The position numbers were made by a program, and so were the translations under genes. Below, in pieces: positions 12,116 through 42,255 of a DNA stretch of 64,000 nt (its first letter is position 1; every line of letters starts with the position of its first letter). Source of the DNA: Blastocatellia bacterium (GTDB lineage: Bacteria; Acidobacteriota; Blastocatellia; HR10; J050). A model generated the notes under the pieces. That model was not told the DNA's origin. It was given only the letters and a program-made list of their open reading frames with translations, and did not search any database. The stretch is taken from NCBI GenBank assembly GCA_025054955.1, contig JANWZE010000050.1, positions 62,001 through 126,000 on the forward strand, written 5' to 3'.

Positions 12116-15100
12116 TTAGAAGTTATATTTCAGCGCCAGTTGCATTCGGCGCGCGCCGGTAGAGACGGAACCGCGCATGCGGCCAAACACAGCACTGGTG
12201 ATGATCGCGCTATTGGGCAGTGCACTGAAGAAGACAGTATTGGGCACATTTTGCATCTCCAGGCGAAAATCAACGCTGTGATTTTCGGTGATGCGCGTCC
12301 GTTTACCGATGGTCATATCGAACGAGAAGTCGGGCGGGAGCGTGAAGAAGTTTCTCGTTGTATTGCCCAATTGACCGGCTGCCGGCGTGGAGAAGAGCGC
12401 CCGTTCTTGTGCGTTGAAGTAGAACTCGGTGCCGACAGACGGATCAAAGAACAAGCCGCCCGTGTTGCGCGTGCAGCCGTTGCAATTGGCCGGCGATTGA
12501 ACCACATTGCTCACCGTGTTGGAACCGGAGTAGACGGTAAACGGCCGGCCACTGCTCAGGACCAGGATGCCATAGAGCTGCCAGCCGCCGATCAAGCGGT
12601 CAACCACGCCGGGCCAATCGTTGCCCCAGCGTTGTCCTCGGCCAAAGGGAAGCTCGTAGCCCCAATTGTTCGCCCACACATGGGTGCGGTCAAAATCCGA
12701 GCGGGCATAATTGAGCTTGCGGTTGCGTAGATCAAACGGCGTGCTCGACGCCGATTGAACAGCGCCGCGCGAGACCCGCGTGAAGGCCGGATCGAATGAG
12801 CGCGTATCCAGTGATTTGGCGAACGTGTAATTGGATTGGAAGTTGAGGCCGTGGCTGAATCGTTTCTCAACGATCAATTCCAGCCCGTGATAGGTTGAAA
12901 AGTCGTTACTGTCAAGCACGTTCATCTGGCCGGCAAACTGCGTGTAAGGCCGGAAGAAGAACGGACTGAAGCCAGAGCGCACAATCATCTGGACTCCGCC
13001 TTCCGTGCGGTTGGCAATCAGATCAGCCAGCGCGCCGACGGAGTTCAGGTTGAGCTGTGTGGCGAACAAGCGGCGCACCATTTGTGAGCCTGTCTCGCCC
13101 GAGCGTCGGCGCGAATCGGCTGTCAGCAGCGCATTCATCAACTCGCTTTCGCCGCCAGCTTTGACGATGTTGAACGCATCGAGGAAGCCGTTGCGGAAAA
13201 TTTCCGCTTGGTTCACATCGTAACCGCCGAACAGGCCGATCCCTTTTCGTCCGATGTAATTGACCGTGACGACCGTATTCCAACCGAGTTCTCGTTGAAT
13301 ACTCAAGCCCCAGCCATGGGTTTTCGGCGAGCGAAAATCGGGGTCAACCACGTGGATACCGGCGGTCGAGAAAATGGCCGGTTGAGCCAGTTGCTGTGGC
13401 GTCACGCCGGCCGGCGGCGAGAGCGTGGGAATGCCATCACGCACGCGTCCGCCACGTTGCCCGAATTCCTGATTGATGACCGACAAGATTTGGCCAGGAA
13501 TGCTCTGATAAATCACCGAGGAGAGCAAAAACGTGTTGATGCGGTCGTAGGCCAGACGATAGTTGACGCGAATCGAGGTCTTGCCGGTTTTGAATGGGTC
13601 CCAGGCAAATCCGATGCTTGGTCCCAGGTTGTTCCAATCATCGTCGTAGAGCGGCCCCGGCTCCCAGCGCAGCGTATTGGATGCTGGAGCGCCGAGCGTG
13701 ACCAATTGATTGGGTCGGGCAATTCGATTGCGCGGATTGGTCGGCGCCAACTTCACTTCCCAGCGCAGCCCTAGATCAAAGGTGAGATTGGGTCGCACTT
13801 TCCACGTGTCTTGCCAGTAAAAATCATACTCGCCGTACCGGGCGTCGAAGTCGAAGATCGAGCCGGGCGGCGCAAACTGGTTACCGGCAGCGACGAACCC
13901 TTGCGAAATCCGACCGACGCGGCCCAGCAAGTTGTTGATGGTCGCTTGCAGCAGAGGACGGTCAAATGTCGTGTTGATGTCCGCCGGCAAGCGGAACGTC
14001 GCCGGATCAACGGTGTTGATAGCCGGGTCGAAATTAACCGACACCCGCGCGTTTTGATCGCCAATGGAACCGCGCTTGTCAATGTGTTGTTGATAGCGGA
14101 AGTTGATACCCGCTTTGAATGTGTGCGCCCCGCGCACGTAGGTGAGATTGTCCACCAGTTGATAGGTGTTGATCGTGCGCAGATTGCCGATGTAGTTGAA
14201 TAACACATCGGTCACTGTATTGAGCACGAACGGCGGATTGTTGGCCGCGTTAGGGTCGGGATTGGCAAAATCGAATGTGAACCGATTGAATCCGATCACC
14301 ACTTCGTTGGTCACATTAGAGCTGGGAATCCAGCGCCAATTCAGCGCGAGGTTGCGTGGTCGGCGTCGGGTATCAACCACACGTGGCAGTCCAGGGAACC
14401 GCGCTTGTCCGTCGTTGACGAAATCGCCGATGGTGTCCTGCCGACCATGCGAGTAACGCCCGAAGATCGTATTGCGCTCGCTGAACGCGTGGTCAATTCT
14501 GACCATGAAGTCTTCCTGTTTTTCGTTTTCAATCGGCCTCCAGGTGAAACCGGCCGTGTTCAGACCATCCCCGACGAAGAAGTTGTTGGGCAACGGCGTT
14601 CGGTTGATCAGGTCGAGAATTTGTCGTTCCAGCCCGAACATTTGCGGATCATTGGCGGCAATATCGTACGTGCCGATGTTCAGACCGGGCAACACATTTC
14701 CATTGGCATCAACTGAAGCCCCCGGGGCACCAGCGGGTTGATTCCGTCCACCTCGAACGTAACGAAAGATACCGCGTCGTGCCTGCTCCGTGTACACGGT
14801 GCTCGTGATCGTGCGCGTGCTGCGCAAGCGTAGCACCTGCAAGTTGGTGAAGAAGAATGTACGATTCTTGATAATTGGGCCGCCCACGCTATAGCCGGGG
14901 ATGTGCTGAACGAACTGCGGCCGTTGAATGCCGTCCAATTTGTTGCCGAAGGAATTGGCGTGAAGGCTCGGTGTTTGGTAAAACCAGAAGACCGAACCGT
15001 GAAATTCGTTCGTCCCGGATTTGGAGACAAGCGCCACCTGTCCGCCGCTGTTACGTCCATATTCAGCGGTGAAGTTGCTGGTGATGACGCGGAACTCGGC

Positions 15101-25548: not shown

Positions 25549-26301
25549 ATGAACCTGACATTGAAGATTTGGCGACAACCCAATGCGCATACCCGTGGTC
25601 AATTGGTGACCTATTCAATCAGCGGCGTTTCGCCGGATATGTCATTTCTGGAAATGCTGGATGTGCTCAACCAGCAGTTGATTCATAAGGGCGAAGAGCC
25701 GGTCGCGTTTTTGAGTGACTGCCGTGAGGGAATTTGCGGCTCGTGCGGCTTGTTCATTAACGGTCGGGCGCATGGGCCATTGAGCGGTACAGCGACGTGT
25801 CAGTTGCACATGCGCGCGTTCAAAGATGGCGATACGATTGTCATTGAACCGTGGCGCGCTAAAGGTTTCCCGGTGATCCGTGATCTGGTGGTTGACCGTT
25901 CAGCCTTTGATCGCATCATCCAAGCGGGTGGTTATATTTCGGTCAACACCGGATCAGCTCCTGATGCCAATGCTATCCTGATTCCCAAATCAGCCGCCGA
26001 CGCTGCTTTTGACGCAGCCGCCTGTATCGGCTGCGGCGCTTGTGTGGCTACGTGCAAGAATGCCTCAGCGATGCTCTTTGTCGCGGCCAAGGTCTCCCAT
26101 CTGGCCTACTTGCCGCAGGGACAACCCGAACGCCGCCGCCGCGTGCTCAATATGGTGGCTGCAATGGATCGAGAAGGCTTCGGCAGTTGCACGCTGACCG
26201 GCGCGTGTGAGGTCGAGTGTCCTAAGAAAATTTCTATCTCGCACATCGTCCGGCTCAATCGCGAGTATCTGTCCGCTGTGGTCTCTGACGAGGCCGATTG
26301 A
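25549..26301 (+). CDS. sdhB: Succinate dehydrogenase iron-sulfur subunit
   Basis: A 250-residue protein carrying three clusters. The [2Fe-2S] ligands are in [10 protein letters not shown] with CQLHMR (~59-90). The [4Fe-4S] box is [11 protein letters not shown] (~160). The third box is [15 protein letters not shown] (~213). It moves electrons from the FAD of SdhA to the hemes of SdhC. Third gene of sdhCAB. After its stop the region to 27042 is repeat-filled, with no obvious terminator hairpin. Confidence 0.96.
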
Positions 26302-27042: not shown

Positions 27043-27561
27043 ATGATGAAAAAGGCAATTTCGATGGCTTTGCTAAGCTGTTTGTTGCTGAACGGGTCCG
27101 TTTTGGCTGGCTTAAATAGCAAGAAAGCTGCCTATCATGGTGGAACTACTAAAGACAAGGACTTCCCCGGCGCGGAAAAGCCAGTGGAGGGGATCCTGCA
27201 TACAAATAACGAGCAGAACTTAATCTTTGAGTACGAGCTCAATAAGGTGAAGAGAACATATTCGATTCCGTACAAGCGGATAATTGACATTGAGTATGGC
27301 CAAAAGGCTGGCCGAAGAGTAGGTGCAGCGATAGCGACGGCGATTTTAATCAGTCCAGTCGGATTATTCCTACTCTTCTCAAAGAAAAGAAAACATTTTA
27401 TAACGATTGGGTACAGAGACGCTGAAGGGAAGGAGCAGGTGACAGTATTTGAGCTTGGAAAAGATATCGTGCGGACCACGCTCCCTATACTTGAGGTAAG
27501 GTCGGGTAAAAAGATTATTTACCAAGACGAAGAGGCGAAGAAATCTGCTAAAGGTAGCTGA
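27043..27561 (+). CDS. Hypothetical exported/membrane protein
   Basis: A 172-residue protein I do not recognise. A signal peptide (residues 1-23, MMKKAISMALLSCLLL then SVLA) is followed by a polar stretch, a segment of alternating charged and beta-like residues (RTYSIPYKRIIDIEYGQ), one hydrophobic helix at ~95-112 (GAAIATAILISPVGLFLLF) and a second beta-rich part (HFITIGYRDAEGKEQVTVFEL). The pattern, with beta strands on both sides of a helix, is reminiscent of bacterial PH-like domains, but this is a guess. It has a strong GCGGAGGTGG ribosome site. It is AT-richer and more Lys-rich than its neighbours, which suggests a different history. Confidence 0.65.
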   Translation: MMKKAISMALLSCLLLNGSVLAGLNSKKAAYHGGTTKDKDFPGAEKPVEGILHTNNEQNLIFEYELNKVKRTYSIPYKRIIDIEYGQKAGRRVGAAIATAILISPVGLFLLFSKKRKHFITIGYRDAEGKEQVTVFELGKDIVRTTLPILEVRSGKKIIYQDEEAKKSAKGS

Positions 27562-27767
27562 GCTGCTCAATAGGCGTGTTATGAGCACTTGCCGCGCCTA
27601 ATCCACGCAGCACCAATGCTGCCAGTTCGACTGAATCGGCAACTGACCAAGCTCTCGTGTCCGTTGATAAGGCTTTGGAGTCGAAGTGAGAGTGAGAGAG
27701 ATCACGGTACGCGAGATAACGGTGGAAGAGAGATGGGTTCGAGAGAAGTAAGTAAGGATGGTACTTC

Positions 27768-28025
27768 GTGAAAGTCAGGGAGATCATTAAGAGGCTTGAG
27801 AAAGATGGGTGGTATCTTGTCGGAACCAAGGTGATTGTGGAAAAGGGAGAAAAAAGTTACGGGGCGTATGTTCCAGATTTGCCGGGTTGTGTGGCAGTGG
27901 CTGAGACCAAAGAAGAAGTTCTAAAGCTGATTCGTGAAGCTATCGAATTACATGTTGAAAGCATGAAAGAGGAGGGACTTTCCATTCCTCAGCCGAGGAC
28001 GATCAGCCAATATGTGGAAGTGTAG
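27768..28025 (+). CDS. In-frame HicA-HicB fusion (antitoxin with toxin N-terminus)
   Basis: An 85-residue protein starting at GTG 27768 with AAGGATG upstream. Residues 1-18 (MKVREIIKRLEKDGWYLV) match the N-terminus of HicA, an mRNA-cleaving toxin of the dsRBD fold. Residues ~21-85 (VIVEKGEKSYGAYVPDLPGC then VAVAETKEEVLKLIREAI) are a nearly complete HicB antitoxin. The HicA GSHR segment with the catalytic histidine is missing, so the product should be non-toxic. It looks like an internal deletion that joined a hicAB pair. It is followed 20 bases later by an attC-like site, as in integron cassettes. It could still act as an orphan antitoxin. Confidence 0.72.
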   Translation: MKVREIIKRLEKDGWYLVGTKVIVEKGEKSYGAYVPDLPGCVAVAETKEEVLKLIREAIELHVESMKEEGLSIPQPRTISQYVEV

Positions 28026-28044
28026 AAGCAGCTAGTGAGAGTTT

Positions 28045-28102
28045 GCCTAACGCCGGGATGGAGCCGACTCGTTACGCTCGCGGCTCATCCCCATCGTTAG
28101 CT
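28045..28102 (+). other. attC-like recombination site
   Basis: The 58-bp imperfect palindrome starts GCCTAACG (fits the RYYYAAC box) and ends CGTTAGCT (fits GTTRRRY except for one base). The inner arms GGGATGGAGCCG and CGGCTCATCCC pair with one unpaired G, as attC sites have extrahelical bases. The loop contains ACTCGTTACGCTCG. It lies 20 bases after the HicA-HicB fusion ORF, the usual position of attC in a gene cassette. An integron-integrase remnant lies at 39547. It could be a relic cassette end. No intact integrase is present. Confidence 0.5.
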
Positions 28103-28196
28103 CGCCCGCCGATGTCGCGTCGCTGCGGCTGGAGCCGAACTTCGTGTATCCGCCGCGCCTGGCCACCTGGATTCGGTTCGTGCTGGCCACGCCGTC

Positions 28197-28752
28197 GGAA
28201 TCATCAAGATGAGACTCGTCCAGAAACCACACTTCATGTGTACCAATTCGGGACTAATCTCTTCTTCAGCGATTACCACTCTCGGTTCCAGAACCATCCC
28301 GCAGATCGGACAGGAGCCCGGCTCCGATCGCTCGATCTCTGGATGCATCGGACACACATATTCCGTTTTGGTGACGCCAGCTAAGCCCTCAATGGCTCCA
28401 ATGCCATGCCACAGGCGGGACACGACGCCGTCCTTGCTGGCGAACCTCCGGCGGATGCACGGGGTATGTATATTCGACACTTGTGTCCGCGCGCTGCGGC
28501 TGGATGGTATCAGAAGCGACGCCAGACAGATGTTGCCGTGGAGATGCGAGGTACTTATCCGGCTCGGCGCGAAACTTCTCAAGACAGTGGGTACAGCAAA
28601 AGAAATACGTTCCTCCCCGATAATCGTAGGATGCGGCGGCGGTGGCCGGGTCCACACTCATGCCGCAGACCGGATCTATGACCCTCTGGCCACTCGTGTT
28701 GTGGTGAGGCTCGCTGCTGCCCAAAGCAACCACTTTTTTCTTTGTGGTTCAT
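28197..28752 (-). pseudogene. Decayed N-terminal part of a metal P-type ATPase (YHS / heavy-metal-binding domains)
   Basis: From ATG 28752 the frame is MNHKEK, then a run of six A's has shifted it. In the new frame, 28389-28733, a YHS metal-binding domain appears ([34 protein letters not shown]), then a damaged [15 protein letters not shown] second shift leads into [19 protein letters not shown] and ICGMVLEP, then [10 protein letters not shown], where membrane helix 1 should begin. The homology stops there at ~28197. The next ~90 bases read in the opposite direction give [15 protein letters not shown], which resembles a later ATPase segment, so an inversion may have followed. It ends the ArsR-led operon, seven bases after ccdA, and was probably a copper-type exporter. 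At least two frameshifts plus truncation make it non-functional. Confidence 0.72.
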
Positions 28753-31548: not shown

Positions 31549-31691
31549 CTAAGTAGGTGGACAAACGTCCTGGGACATTTTGGGAGGGACAGGACGTTTC
31601 GGAGTGCGGTGACATGTCACCGCTTTCCGACCAAAGCTGCGACACGTCGCAGCACTCTAAAAACGCCACGAACTTTTGCCACGTTGCTTAG
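31549..31691 (+). repeat. 142-bp three-hairpin element, copy A
   Basis: A related copy is at 42024-42164. Ends CTAAGTAGGTGGACAAAC and TTTGCCACGTTGCTTAG are imperfect inverted repeats. Inside are three stems: AAACGTCCTG/CAGGACGTTT (31563-31599), GCGGTGAC/GTCACCGC and GCTGCGAC/GTCGCAGC. It sits just upstream of arsR, pointing away. It could be a mobile MITE-like element or a structured RNA. Confidence 0.7.
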
Positions 31692-31752
31692 AAGCGGCCT
31701 CATAAATACCTCGGTTCGCTATAATCACGAATTATGGCAAGACGAGAAGAAT

Positions 31753-39451: not shown

Positions 39452-39546
39452 ATATTGGCGGCCTAAACTAACACACCTGGCCGGCGGGGTCAAGAACGTG
39501 CGGGCCTTTCGGCGTTTTCAGGCTCACCGCGTGGAGAAACGCGGGG

Positions 39547-39762
39547 TTGACAAAAAGGGCAGCCTGTCACACACTCAGGCATTCATCTGCTAGACATCTG
39601 ATCGCAGCCGGCTATGCCTCTGGGCGGTGTATGAGCTTCATGGCTACTAAGGACGTGCGGACGACAATGAGCTATAAGCACGTGTTGAACCGTGGTGGAA
39701 AAGGCATTCGGAGTCCGGTTGACAGTTCTAAGAAGAGGGCAGAGGTTGTACGGCAACCATAG
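39547..39762 (+). pseudogene. Integron-integrase (IntI-like tyrosine recombinase) C-terminal remnant
   Basis: Only the catalytic end survives: KRAACHTLRHSSARHLIAAG, then KDVRTTMSYKHVLNRGGKGI and RSPVD. The HTLRHS box and the tyrosine with the GGKGIRSP tail are hallmarks of integron integrases. Between GY and KDVRTT the residues are wrong, but a neighbouring frame reads AVYELHGY, matching the expected TVQELLGH, so two compensating frameshifts have occurred. The preceding ~45 bases also keep a homologous-looking piece in another frame. No N-terminus exists upstream. It is a dead relic, close to the toxin-antitoxin pair. Confidence 0.75.
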
Positions 39763-39939
39763 ATGTCGAAGTAATCAGAGAAATCAGGTTGAGTTCATTG
39801 GCAAAGAGAACTTAACAACTCACAGACCTGGTGTCTTAGGCCGACAGAATGTAGCCTAAGAGTGTTATGTGAAAACCAACTAATCAATAATTAGCTAACG
39901 CAACGTGATTGCGACGTCGGTTCTTAAGGAGATAGTCCG

Positions 39940-40161
39940 ATGTTGAAGCGAATTGATGTAAAAGAAGCGCAAGCGCGGTTCCAAGAGCTGCTTGCCCAGA
40001 TGGCCTCAGGCGTTGAATGGATCCTCACTGATGGGATGACACCTGTTGCCCGTCTTGCACCCATCTCTGCTCGTGTAGCAGGCTTACACGCGGGAGCAGT
40101 TTGGATAAGCCCTGATTTCGATGAACCTTTACCTGATGAATTCTGGCCAGGCAACGCATGA
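39940..40161 (+). CDS. Phd/YefM-like antitoxin
   Basis: A 73-residue antitoxin starting MLKRIDVKEAQARFQELLAQ, the usual Phd/YefM DNA-binding N-terminus (helix, then ELL..., then GVEWILTDGMTPVARLAPI). The C-terminal tail (ISPDFDEPLPDEFW) is the segment that normally inserts into a PIN toxin. It should bind and neutralise the toxin encoded next and repress the pair. It has AAGGAGATA ahead of the ATG, and its stop overlaps the toxin start as ATGA. Confidence 0.88.
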   Translation: MLKRIDVKEAQARFQELLAQMASGVEWILTDGMTPVARLAPISARVAGLHAGAVWISPDFDEPLPDEFWPGNA

Positions 40162-40544
40162 AGTTATTGCTGGACACACACACGTTCATCTGGTGGGATA
40201 GTGAACCTGCCAAACTTTCGCCGCGCGTTTTGGCACTGTGTCAAGATCGCCAGAATGTTCTGCTACTCAGTGTAGTCAGTATTTGGGAGATGCAAATCAA
40301 GTCTGAACTGGGGAAGTTACGGCTGGCTTTGTCCCTGAAAGAGATTGTTGAAAGTCAACAGCAAACGAACAATATCGAAATACTGCCGATTACCTTGGAG
40401 CATGTGCTGGCGTTGGAGAAGTTGCCTGCGTCTCACAAAGACCCCTTTGACCGTTTGTTGGTAGCACAAGCAATGGTAGAGGGGTTGGTGTTGCTCAGTG
40501 CAGACCCCAACATTACCAAATATTCCATTCAAGTTGTATGGTGA
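40158..40544 (+). CDS. PIN-domain ribonuclease toxin (VapC-like)
   Basis: A 128-residue PIN protein. The acidic metal ligands are present: LLLDTHTFIWW (Asp-6), SVVSIWEMQIK (Glu), DPFDRLLVAQAM (Asp) and LLSADPNI (Asp). The length fits the PIN group paired with Phd/YefM antitoxins. It cuts RNA when unneutralised. It is translationally coupled to the antitoxin (ATGA). The pair is likely intact and active, unlike the decayed genes on each side. Confidence 0.9.
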   Translation: MKLLLDTHTFIWWDSEPAKLSPRVLALCQDRQNVLLLSVVSIWEMQIKSELGKLRLALSLKEIVESQQQTNNIEILPITLEHVLALEKLPASHKDPFDRLLVAQAMVEGLVLLSADPNITKYSIQVVW

Positions 40545-40723
40545 GCAAAATGGCGCGCTGGCGAACAAGCGTTTCCAGCAGACGCCTTGTTGCACTTGGT
40601 ACGGCTGAAACGCGAACCGTTCACTCAACCGCGTGCCGTCGGGTGAACATGGCGCCGGATGAGCCGTGCTGGCGCAGGCGCCTGCGGCTGTAACCAACGC
40701 TTAGGCGGCTACGGAGGAGTGAA

Positions 40724-41593
40724 ATGGAATACGTGAAGTTTGAAAAGGTTTCGCTCAAGAACCACCCCCAACTCAACGAGCGTTGGGTGCAGGAGCGTAT
40801 CGCAGAGGACCCGACAATATTAGGGCTTGGAGATGTTGTTCTATAAGGATAAAGAACGAATCCAGCCACGCGCAGGGCGGCTTGACCTACTCTTGCAAGA
40901 CGCAGAATCAAGCAGACGTTACGAAGTCGAGATTCAACTCGGAAGCGTAGATGAAAGCCACATCATTCGAACCATCGAGTACTGGGATATTGAGCGCAAA
41001 CGTTACCCACAATATGACCACACTGCGGTCATCGTCGCTGAAGATATCACAAGCCGCTTTCTAAACGTGATTAGTTTGTTCAACGGTGTGATCCCTCTTA
41101 TAGCAATACAAATGAGTGCTCTCAAGCGTGGTGATGAAGTGGGTCTAGTATTCACAACTGTTGTTGACCAAATGTCTCTTGGGCTCGTAGGCGAAGATGA
41201 AGAAGTGCGAGAGACAACTGACCGTGCCTATTGGGAAAATCGCGGGTCAAGGAAAACTGTGGCAATGGCGGATCAATTGCTGGAAATTGCAAAGCAATTT
41301 GACGCGTCGCTTGAACTCAAATACAACTAATTCTATATCGGGTTAGCGAAACACGGGCAGCCCAGCAACTTTAGATATTCAGACCCAAGAAGGGGTTCAT
41401 CAGGTTTGAGCCTAGACTGAAGAATTCACCTGAGATTCAAGAGAGCCTCGAAAACGCAGGACTTGATGTTATGGACTATGACACGCGCTGGGGACGTTAC
41501 CGAATCAGACTACAACCAGGTGAGATTGAAAAGAATAAGCAAGTGCTGACTGAAGTTATCAAGAAGGCGTATGAAACTTCGAGCGAAGAATAA
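40724..41593 (+). pseudogene. Decayed PD-(D/E)XK nuclease-like gene (three lesions)
   Basis: Reading frame 1 begins MEYVKFEKVSLKNHPQLNER and dies at TAA 40843 after GLGDVVL. The next part in another frame reads LFYKDKERIQPRAGRLDLLL with EVEIQLG, the D and E-x-Q of a PD-(D/E)XK-type site, up to SLELKYN, where TAA stops it at 41328-41330. The same frame goes on FYIGLAKHGQPSNF, then another shift gives IFRPKKGFIRFEPRLKN and YETSSEE ending at 41593. All pieces line up as one ~290-residue protein. The middle ORF (40827-41330) alone might still be translated from TTG, but the missing ends make a pseudogene likelier. Confidence 0.7.
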
Positions 41594-41689
41594 ACGCCGC
41601 ATAACAACGGCGTTTTCAGGCTGCTTGTCTTGACAGGGAAATGAGGCCGTCCGTATACTAACGCCTTTTTCAAAACAGAGGAAAAACGC

Positions 41690-41968
41690 ATGGCACATCA
41701 TAAGTCAGCAATCAAAGCAATAGCTCAGAATGAAAAACGGCGTGAAATCAATCGCCGGAACCTGAGTCGCATGAGAACAGCGATCAAGAAACTGCGGGCG
41801 GCAATTGCTTCCGGCGACGCAAACGCCGCTCAACGCCTACTGGGTGAAACAGTCTCCGTCATTGACAAATCCATCCATAAGGGCGTTGTCCATCGCAACG
41901 CCGCTGCGCGCTACAAATCAAGGTTAACCATGCAGGTCAACAAACTGGTCGCCCAGAAAGCGTCCTGA
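41690..41968 (+). CDS. rpsT: 30S ribosomal protein S20
   Basis: A 92-residue S20. It is typical in length and in its basic, all-helical makeup: MAHHKSAIKAIAQNEKRREI at the start, NRRNLSRMRTAIKKL, then KSIHKGVVHRNAAARYKSRL near the end. It binds 16S rRNA early in 30S assembly. It stands alone as a monocistronic gene with a GAGGAAAAACGC ribosome site region just upstream. Downstream, 56 bases after the stop, lies copy B of the three-hairpin element. Confidence 0.97.
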   Translation: MAHHKSAIKAIAQNEKRREINRRNLSRMRTAIKKLRAAIASGDANAAQRLLGETVSVIDKSIHKGVVHRNAAARYKSRLTMQVNKLVAQKAS

Positions 41969-42023: not shown

Positions 42024-42164
42024 CTAAGTGGGTGGACAAACGTTCTGGGACATTTTGGGAGACGGGACGTTTTGCAGTGCGGTGACGTGTCACCGCTTTC
42101 CGGCCAAAGCTGCGATACGTTGCAGCACTCCAACAACGCCACGAACTTTTGTCACGTTACTTAG
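42024..42164 (+). repeat. 142-bp three-hairpin element, copy B
   Basis: Same layout as copy A. Ends CTAAGTGGGTGGACAAAC and TTTTGTCACGTTACTTAG match as inverted repeats at 12 of 18 positions. Stems: AAACGTTCTG/CGGGACGTTT (42038-42072), GCGGTGAC/GTCACCGC (42079-42096), GCTGCGAT/GTTGCAGC (42109-42126). Compared with copy A, four stem bases differ, and all four keep pairing through G-U if the + strand is transcribed. It lies just after rpsT. Confidence 0.7.
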
Positions 42165-42255
42165 AAAGCATCTTGATCCCACGTCCGTTTGTTGTTTGCT
42201 GAGCATGGCCTAAACCGGCGTGTGCAAGCTCAATGAGCCGCTGATGAACAACCCG

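Follow-up and report, generated by a model that had tools for sequence, protein, structure and literature searches.

A probable lone integron attC site ending a collapsed HicAB cassette in a Blastocatellia bacterium

The palindrome at positions 28045-28102 (58 nt, plus strand) of the window, as we call the whole 64,000-nt stretch of Blastocatellia DNA analysed here, is very probably a genuine integron attC site that terminates a gene cassette. It behaves as an attC in all the sequence tests that were run, and the HicAB cassette that it ends is decayed. We consider it highly likely that the site belongs to a single integron cassette, the HicAB pair of which collapsed by internal deletion, and that the region 39.5-41.6 kb is a separate, second remnant. 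What is confirmed at 28045-28102 is a known kind of element and not something new.

The attC site and its cassette

The boxes of attC sites follow the consensus RYYYAAC for R'' and GTTRRRY, complementary to it, for R'. The site starts with an R'' box that fits this consensus (GCCTAAC, 28045-28051) and ends with an R' box (GTTAGCT, 28096-28102) that agrees at six of the seven positions and deviates at one. Between the boxes lie, on the plus strand, a spacer of 5 nt (28052-28056), L'' (GAT-G-GAGCCG, 28057-28066), a terminal loop of 14 nt (28067-28080), L' (CGGCTCATC, 28081-28089) and a second spacer of 6 nt (28090-28095). The model alignment gives L'' and L' a stem of 9 pairs with unpaired central spacers and one extra-helical base on the R''-L'' arm, which it places at G28060, the neighbouring 28061 being a G as well. 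The original prediction of a palindrome with both boxes and an unpaired G was thus exact in its coordinates.

An L''/L' stem, an extra-helical base, an unpaired central spacer and a terminal loop are the elements by which attC sites are defined in the available part of PMC2727003, where their lengths span 57-142 nt, a range that includes the 58 nt found here. Several points were weighed against the attC reading: the one deviation in R', and the R''/R' stem, which consists of five Watson-Crick pairs, one G-T pair and one mismatch. In addition, the studied attC sites described in that part of PMC2727003 have a conserved G as the extra-helical base of the bottom strand, whereas at 28045-28102 this base would be a C; in the 13 seed sites of our model, counted by eye, the top strand has G at this place in 5 and C in 6. 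Folding alone gave z-scores of -2.7 and -2.8, and one of 200 shuffles was equally good on each strand; since this is only moderately above chance, the case for an attC rests on the covariance model.

Our two attC models, R1 and R2, are not those of IntegronFinder or HattCI, and neither includes a site from the present genome. Their source was a set of 80 loci, kept out of 114 found in named genomes, that encode relatives of the complete integron integrase (IntI) on contig C46 of this genome. Pattern detectors returned 7, 23 and 20 rows from the 80 loci, the 20 rows of the box-and-stem pattern comparing with none in mononucleotide-shuffled loci. From these 20 rows 13 seeds were picked by hand, leaving out five opposite-strand readings and two doubtful rows; R1 was built from the aligned seeds and R2 from the 65 sites that R1 found in the same loci at E <= 0.005. 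With E-values that rest on shortened calibrations, R1 scored 28045-28102 at 32.6 bits (E 1.7e-5), with the next best places in the window at 11.7 bits (E 1.2) and 11.1 bits (E 1.7), and R2 scored it at 35.2 bits (E 7.3e-7 for the 64-kb window, about 5e-5 when scaled by proportion to 4.69 Mb). R2 with default filters found no further place in the window at E <= 10. The plus strand, which is the direction of the ORF described next, was preferred by R2 over the minus strand of the same positions (35.2 against 16.9 bits).

Directly upstream lies an ORF of 85 codons (27768-28025, plus strand) that ends 19 nt before R'' on the same strand as the attC, which is the ORF-then-attC layout of a cassette. 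The original prediction had put the palindrome 20 bases after a small ORF; its position closely 3' of the ORF and on the same strand holds, and the gap, counted from the stop at 28025, is 19 nt. The HicB domain of this ORF is clear (PF15919, 54.6 bits, cut-off 27), and there is a trace of HicA below the cut-off (PF07927, 17.4 bits). In five of six cases the HicA proteins of complete cassettes align to residues 1-21 of the window protein only, with 12-15 of the 21 identical; that of locus L193 gives a gapped, longer alignment reaching residue 51. Since the complete HicAs cover residues 1-21 only, we read the ORF as HicA 1-21 in frame with HicB from about residue 5, the position of the junction being a reading by eye. 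The HicA-HicB fusion that had been suspected is therefore borne out by Pfam and by the complete cassette HicAs, with HicA reduced to a fragment of its first 21 residues. A complete HicA toxin was not found in 27768-28025, and the GSHRQ stretch of HicA, which we take to be the place of the catalytic histidine, is absent. The ORF thus resembles HicAB systems in its HicB domain, which lies above the cut-off, and differs from them in its HicA, which is cut to 21 residues. The HicB part is 56-68% identical to seven loci that have an attC nearby.

The cassette very probably held a complete HicA-HicB toxin-antitoxin pair formerly; comparison with complete pairs shows that an internal deletion took most of hicA and the first hicB codons, leaving the 85-codon ORF with its HicB domain. 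HicA/HicB integron cassettes have already been reported (PMC7370490, in the part available), and among the open-licence papers found none has a fused HicA-HicB cassette in its title. On the other side of the attC, the minus strand of 28097-28733 carries fragments of a gene for metal transport (HMBD, 47.7 bits; YHS, 64 bits), the reading frame of which ends at the attC; these fragments look like a broken metal ATPase.

Once single-stranded, the bottom strand of the attC would be expected to fold into the R-L hairpin with its extra-helical base. An integron integrase would bind the folded bottom strand and cut it at the R' box, the recombination point on the top strand being expected between G28096 and T28097, and the cut site could then be joined to an attI or to another attC. 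The intact-looking integrase of C46 might act in trans on 28045-28102.

Origin of the lone cassette and the relic at 39.5-41.6 kb

The window contains one strong attC and one degenerate attC 12.5 kb away; it contains no cassette array. With cassettes of sedentary chromosomal integrons the cassette at 28 kb shares the attC boxes, the extra-helical base of the L stem, the order of ORF and attC on one strand and the toxin-antitoxin content; unlike them it is solitary and its pair is fused by deletion. CALINs, already in print (PMC8618304 and PMC12444791, as far as the available parts go), resemble it in having attC away from a complete intI, but the default CALIN threshold of IntegronFinder, as used in PMC12444791 according to the same text, is two attC sites, and with one strong attC the window does not reach it.

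One way for a single cassette to arrive at 28 kb is that a circular hicAB cassette integrated at an off-target (attG-type) place, with an IntI from elsewhere in the genome acting in trans. The cassette stands alone, no intI directly adjoins it and a complete IntI is present at C46; moreover, the available part of PMC8618304 counts off-target insertion among the ways in which CALINs arise. However, the left junction is not clear, several GTT-like places having been seen by eye at 27590-27760 with none convincing, and what is left of an array after decay would look alike. We regard this route, which concerns the origin only and is compatible with the attC-cassette reading, as possible but somewhat doubtful.

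The second remnant begins with the 3' end of an intI gene (39541-39723, plus strand), 61 aligned residues of which are 66% identical to the C46 copy. It scores 57.5-64.3 bits with TIGR02249 and, being a fragment, lies far under the cut-off of 265; the stretch 39547-39762, where an integrase relic had been predicted, does hold this integron integrase 3' end according to the profile. The remainder of this intI was not found, and the window has no intact intI. There follow on the same strand an attI-like region (39724-39896) with likeness to copies at C46 and C152, and then, as had been predicted at 39940, a toxin-antitoxin pair, which is VapBC-like and adjoins the attI-like region: a VapB-like antitoxin (39940-40161; NF050009, 25.2 bits, below the cut-off of 60) and a VapC-like PIN-domain toxin (40158-40544; PF01850, 49.6 bits). 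Behind the pair lies a weak, degenerate attC (40556-40629, plus strand) with 15.1 bits under R2 and an E-value of 0.0056 for a 2.6-kb search with filters off, which would not stand out genome-wide. Since 15.1 bits lies within the tail of 12.7-16.7 bits seen in the genome stretches, position counts equally with score for this site. Further downstream, all on the plus strand, are a copy of the GC-rich element without an ORF that is found behind C124 attC sites too (40618-40688, 82% over 72 columns), a cassette-like ORF without a Pfam family at E <= 0.01 (40827-41330), and near 41601 a possible truncated attC start, GCATAACAACGG, noticed by eye only (model 5.8 bits, E 1.6). This last candidate stands before the ORF 41690-41968, presumably rpsT by its sequence.

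The original prediction suggested that 27.7-41.6 kb may be one collapsed chromosomal integron, a reading that the analysis does not support. The two remnants share a strand and are both of toxin-antitoxin type, and a MITE-like element occurs at 31549 and 42024, so that an array later split by inserted genes can be pictured. However, the lone attC lies 11.4 kb left of the relic, upstream of the intI end and on its opposite side from VapBC, whereas the attC sites of C46, C152 and C141 are found downstream of intI. The intervening DNA holds non-cassette genes, namely a DsbD-type ORF and, on the other strand, ORFs that by their sequence are presumably of ArsR and CusA/B/C type, and R2 with default filters found no attC between 28.1 and 40.5 kb. 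An attC upstream of the intI end, and non-cassette genes with no attC among them, argue for two separate remnants, and we think a single integron over this region quite improbable. The intI 3' end, attI-like region, VapBC with its degenerate attC and cassette debris of 39.5-41.6 kb thus fit better as an integron remnant separate from the lone attC cassette.

The same locus was compared in two genomes, G001 and G002, which share the sdhAB flank up to window position 26276; beyond it the sequence of G001 is different and the contig of G002 has no further likeness, so that neither genome favours one array or two remnants. The MITE-like element, with CTAAGT...ACTTAG ends, is present at 31549-31693 and 42024-42166 of the window, L009:14545-14678 and L023:1022-1145 (85-90% alike), and its occurrence on three contigs supports their belonging to one genome.

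attC sites in the genome and its relatives

Direct R2 searches of eight genome stretches revealed eleven attC matches of 21-57 bits beyond the window: C46:18957 (56.8 bits) and C46:18172 (24.4), C141:6205 (45.9) and C141:4680 (37.5), C124:512 (39.7), C124:11364 (32.7), C124:12599 (29.2) and C124:13779 (24.2, behind a ParE-type ORF), C45:35165 (30.5) and C45:34499 (30.2), and C152:35907 (21.0). Six more rows scored 12.7-16.7 bits, two of them being the reverse strands of listed sites. In the 12 own-genome sites of at least 21 bits, window site included, 91.5% of cells are paired, compared with 18.5-42.9% for slid structures, in an alignment fitted to the structure, which favours pair counts; double-sided changes affect 22 cells against 9.0 +/- 2.1 in shuffles (0 of 500). 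Genome-wide model searches, in which at most 150 of 1644-2046 candidates were scored so that attC counts are lower bounds, missed 28045-28102, and the direct searches recovered it. At C124 and C45 the attC sites form clusters without intI in the stretches searched.

Toxin-antitoxin-like pairs ending in an attC were observed at C45 (L122:9499-10116, DUF4258 with a weakly MqsA-like partner) and C141 (L026:5582-6281, DUF433 with DUF5615), and a HicB-HicA pair ending in an attC, its HicA with an internal stop, at C152 (L024:5907-6434). At C124 the GC-rich, ORF-less element of about 140 bp begins at the G-TT crossover of the attC (L009:572-707, 13832-13980 and 1-71); two C124 copies are 96% alike, the window copy 82% over 72 columns, and it is possibly a gene-less mini-cassette.

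Scoring at most 70 candidates per genome with stricter filters, which makes the counts lower bounds, we found attC matches at E <= 0.01 in at least 37 of 58 genomes, the present one included. IntI exceeded the curated cut-off in 18 of the 58; attC was found in 17 of these 18 genomes and in 20 of the 40 without IntI (Fisher p 0.001, kinship ignored). Matches to attC thus go together with a complete IntI but are not confined to the genomes that have one; the 20 genomes of the latter kind may represent decayed integrons, CALINs or partial assemblies. Among the matches listed, where intI and attC share a contig they are co-directional in G017, G035 and G037 but divergent in G001, G022, G029 and G031. 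One genome of the class, G035, has at least 61 attC matches, a large cassette collection.

Homologues of the window ORF at E <= 1e-8 are present in 72 of 162 genomes of the class, again including the present one. From other genomes 29 HicB loci were searched with R2 at E <= 1. In five of them (L192, L196, L197, L203 and L218; E <= 2e-5) an attC of the same orientation directly adjoins the HicB match, L193 has a weak abutting attC (13.5 bits, E 0.5) and in L202 an attC lies about 200 nt further on; two attC matches in L223 were left out of the analysis. The other 22 loci gave no attC match in this search, and HicB alone is therefore no mark of a cassette. Six of the seven loci with attC near have a complete HicA frame upstream of HicB, and in L218 HicA is in two frames.

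A covariance search with our own models, similar to the one that had been proposed as a check, thus gave a high score for the site (35.2 bits) and other attC sites in both the genome and its relatives; an attC covariance model for Acidobacteria already exists (PMC8352920, in the part available). Two further readings of the palindrome were considered. Its place after the stop codon and its folding on both strands might speak for a hicB terminator of transcription or an RNA hairpin of that gene, but this is hardly credible and was rejected, for 27500-28400 contains no terminator-like site, the attC model fits with a strand preference, and the same structure stands behind other genes of the genome. 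That the palindrome is part of a REP or MITE, dispersed in the genome and having nothing to do with integrons, is suggested by a second genomic copy that is 81% alike, and was likewise rejected as most improbable, since only two genomic places were found at E <= 1e-3 (the next at 1.4) and the second, C124:13779, is in the attC cluster behind the ParE ORF. Rfam gave no match in the window at gathering scores, and no tRNA was found there.

Integron integrases and integron decay

A genome-wide profile search revealed a complete integron integrase at C46:16988-17932 (483 bits to TIGR02249, no stops), with an attC 1.0 kb downstream of its frame on the same strand. With this protein as tblastn query, intI pieces were found at C152 (6e-48), in the window at 39541-39723 (1e-20), and at C105 (8e-8), C52 (6e-6, weak by the TIGR02249 model with E 0.16 and 4.4) and C141 (1e-4). 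One complete intI and pieces of five seem many for one genome, and none of the open-licence papers found has a title on so large a number of decayed integron platforms in a genome. In the available part of PMC2426708, intI pseudogenes make up nearly a third of intI genes and more than one intI is present in 20% of bacteria. TIGR02249 also matched frames of 316 and 304 aa on C17 and C22 (47-74 bits), which are probably XerC/D-like. At C105 (L027:7967-8318), C52 (L025:8533-8906) and C141 (L026:3144-3379) the intI fragment consists of an N-terminal part followed directly by a C-terminal or late part, with the middle lost, from which internal deletion seems to be recurrent. A 30-bp repeat (AAACATGACC...CGGACTATTGGTAT) was seen at window positions 887, 26959 and 33017, at L023:16047 and 16727 and at L027:10390, one copy lying directly upstream of the complete intI.

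In the window relic, as at C46, C152 and C141, the cassettes follow intI in its own direction of transcription. This is the layout of Treponema denticola-type integrons, in which intI is transcribed towards attI, in the direction of the cassettes (PMC3607928, in the part available); among the 80 loci kept of 114, the C46 integrase itself has its closest relatives by E-value in MAGs of Actinomycetota (one, 73%) and Chlorobiaceae (65-73%), and a partial match to an Acidobacteria MAG among the same loci is 78% identical.

A three-copy alignment shows that C46, the window and C152 have an attI-like region after the intI stop in common, the C46 DNA match reaching window position 39889 (67.8% over 363 columns, intI end included). 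The likeness of the three copies stops at about GATGGCG / ATTAGCT / GTTGGGC, where the ATTAGCT of the window (39890-39896) aligns with the GTTGGGC of C152 and has ATT where GTT stands. The first cassettes beyond it differ, being VapBC in the window and HicB-HicA in C152, and likeness ending before differing first cassettes is as expected of an attI crossover. By its sequence the shared region is a putative attI. C105, C52 and C141 gave no attI-like match, and when the three own copies were aligned with 15 relatives no motif was common to all, the own copies alone agreeing.

It is conceivable, though we think it unlikely, that the genome has up to six integron platforms, that the one complete integrase acts in trans on attI and attC sites scattered through it and that toxin-antitoxin cassettes in first position preserve the decayed platforms. 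If this were true, lone attC sites like 28045-28102 would serve as functional landing sites, and the fused HicA-HicB would be a cassette-borne solitary antitoxin against the HicA of other cassettes.

Besides the single collapsed cassette and the separate remnant of the reading we prefer, the genome apparently contains an intact integron elsewhere, at C46, and other decayed ones. A lone attC that is passed over by the two-site CALIN threshold can be recognised by its model score, its paralogues and its cassette gene. In the class, attC matches in at least 37 of 58 genomes indicate integrons, and both layouts of intI and attC occur. The collapsed HicAB, together with the three platforms that have an attI-like region in common, provides a small natural series of integron decay.
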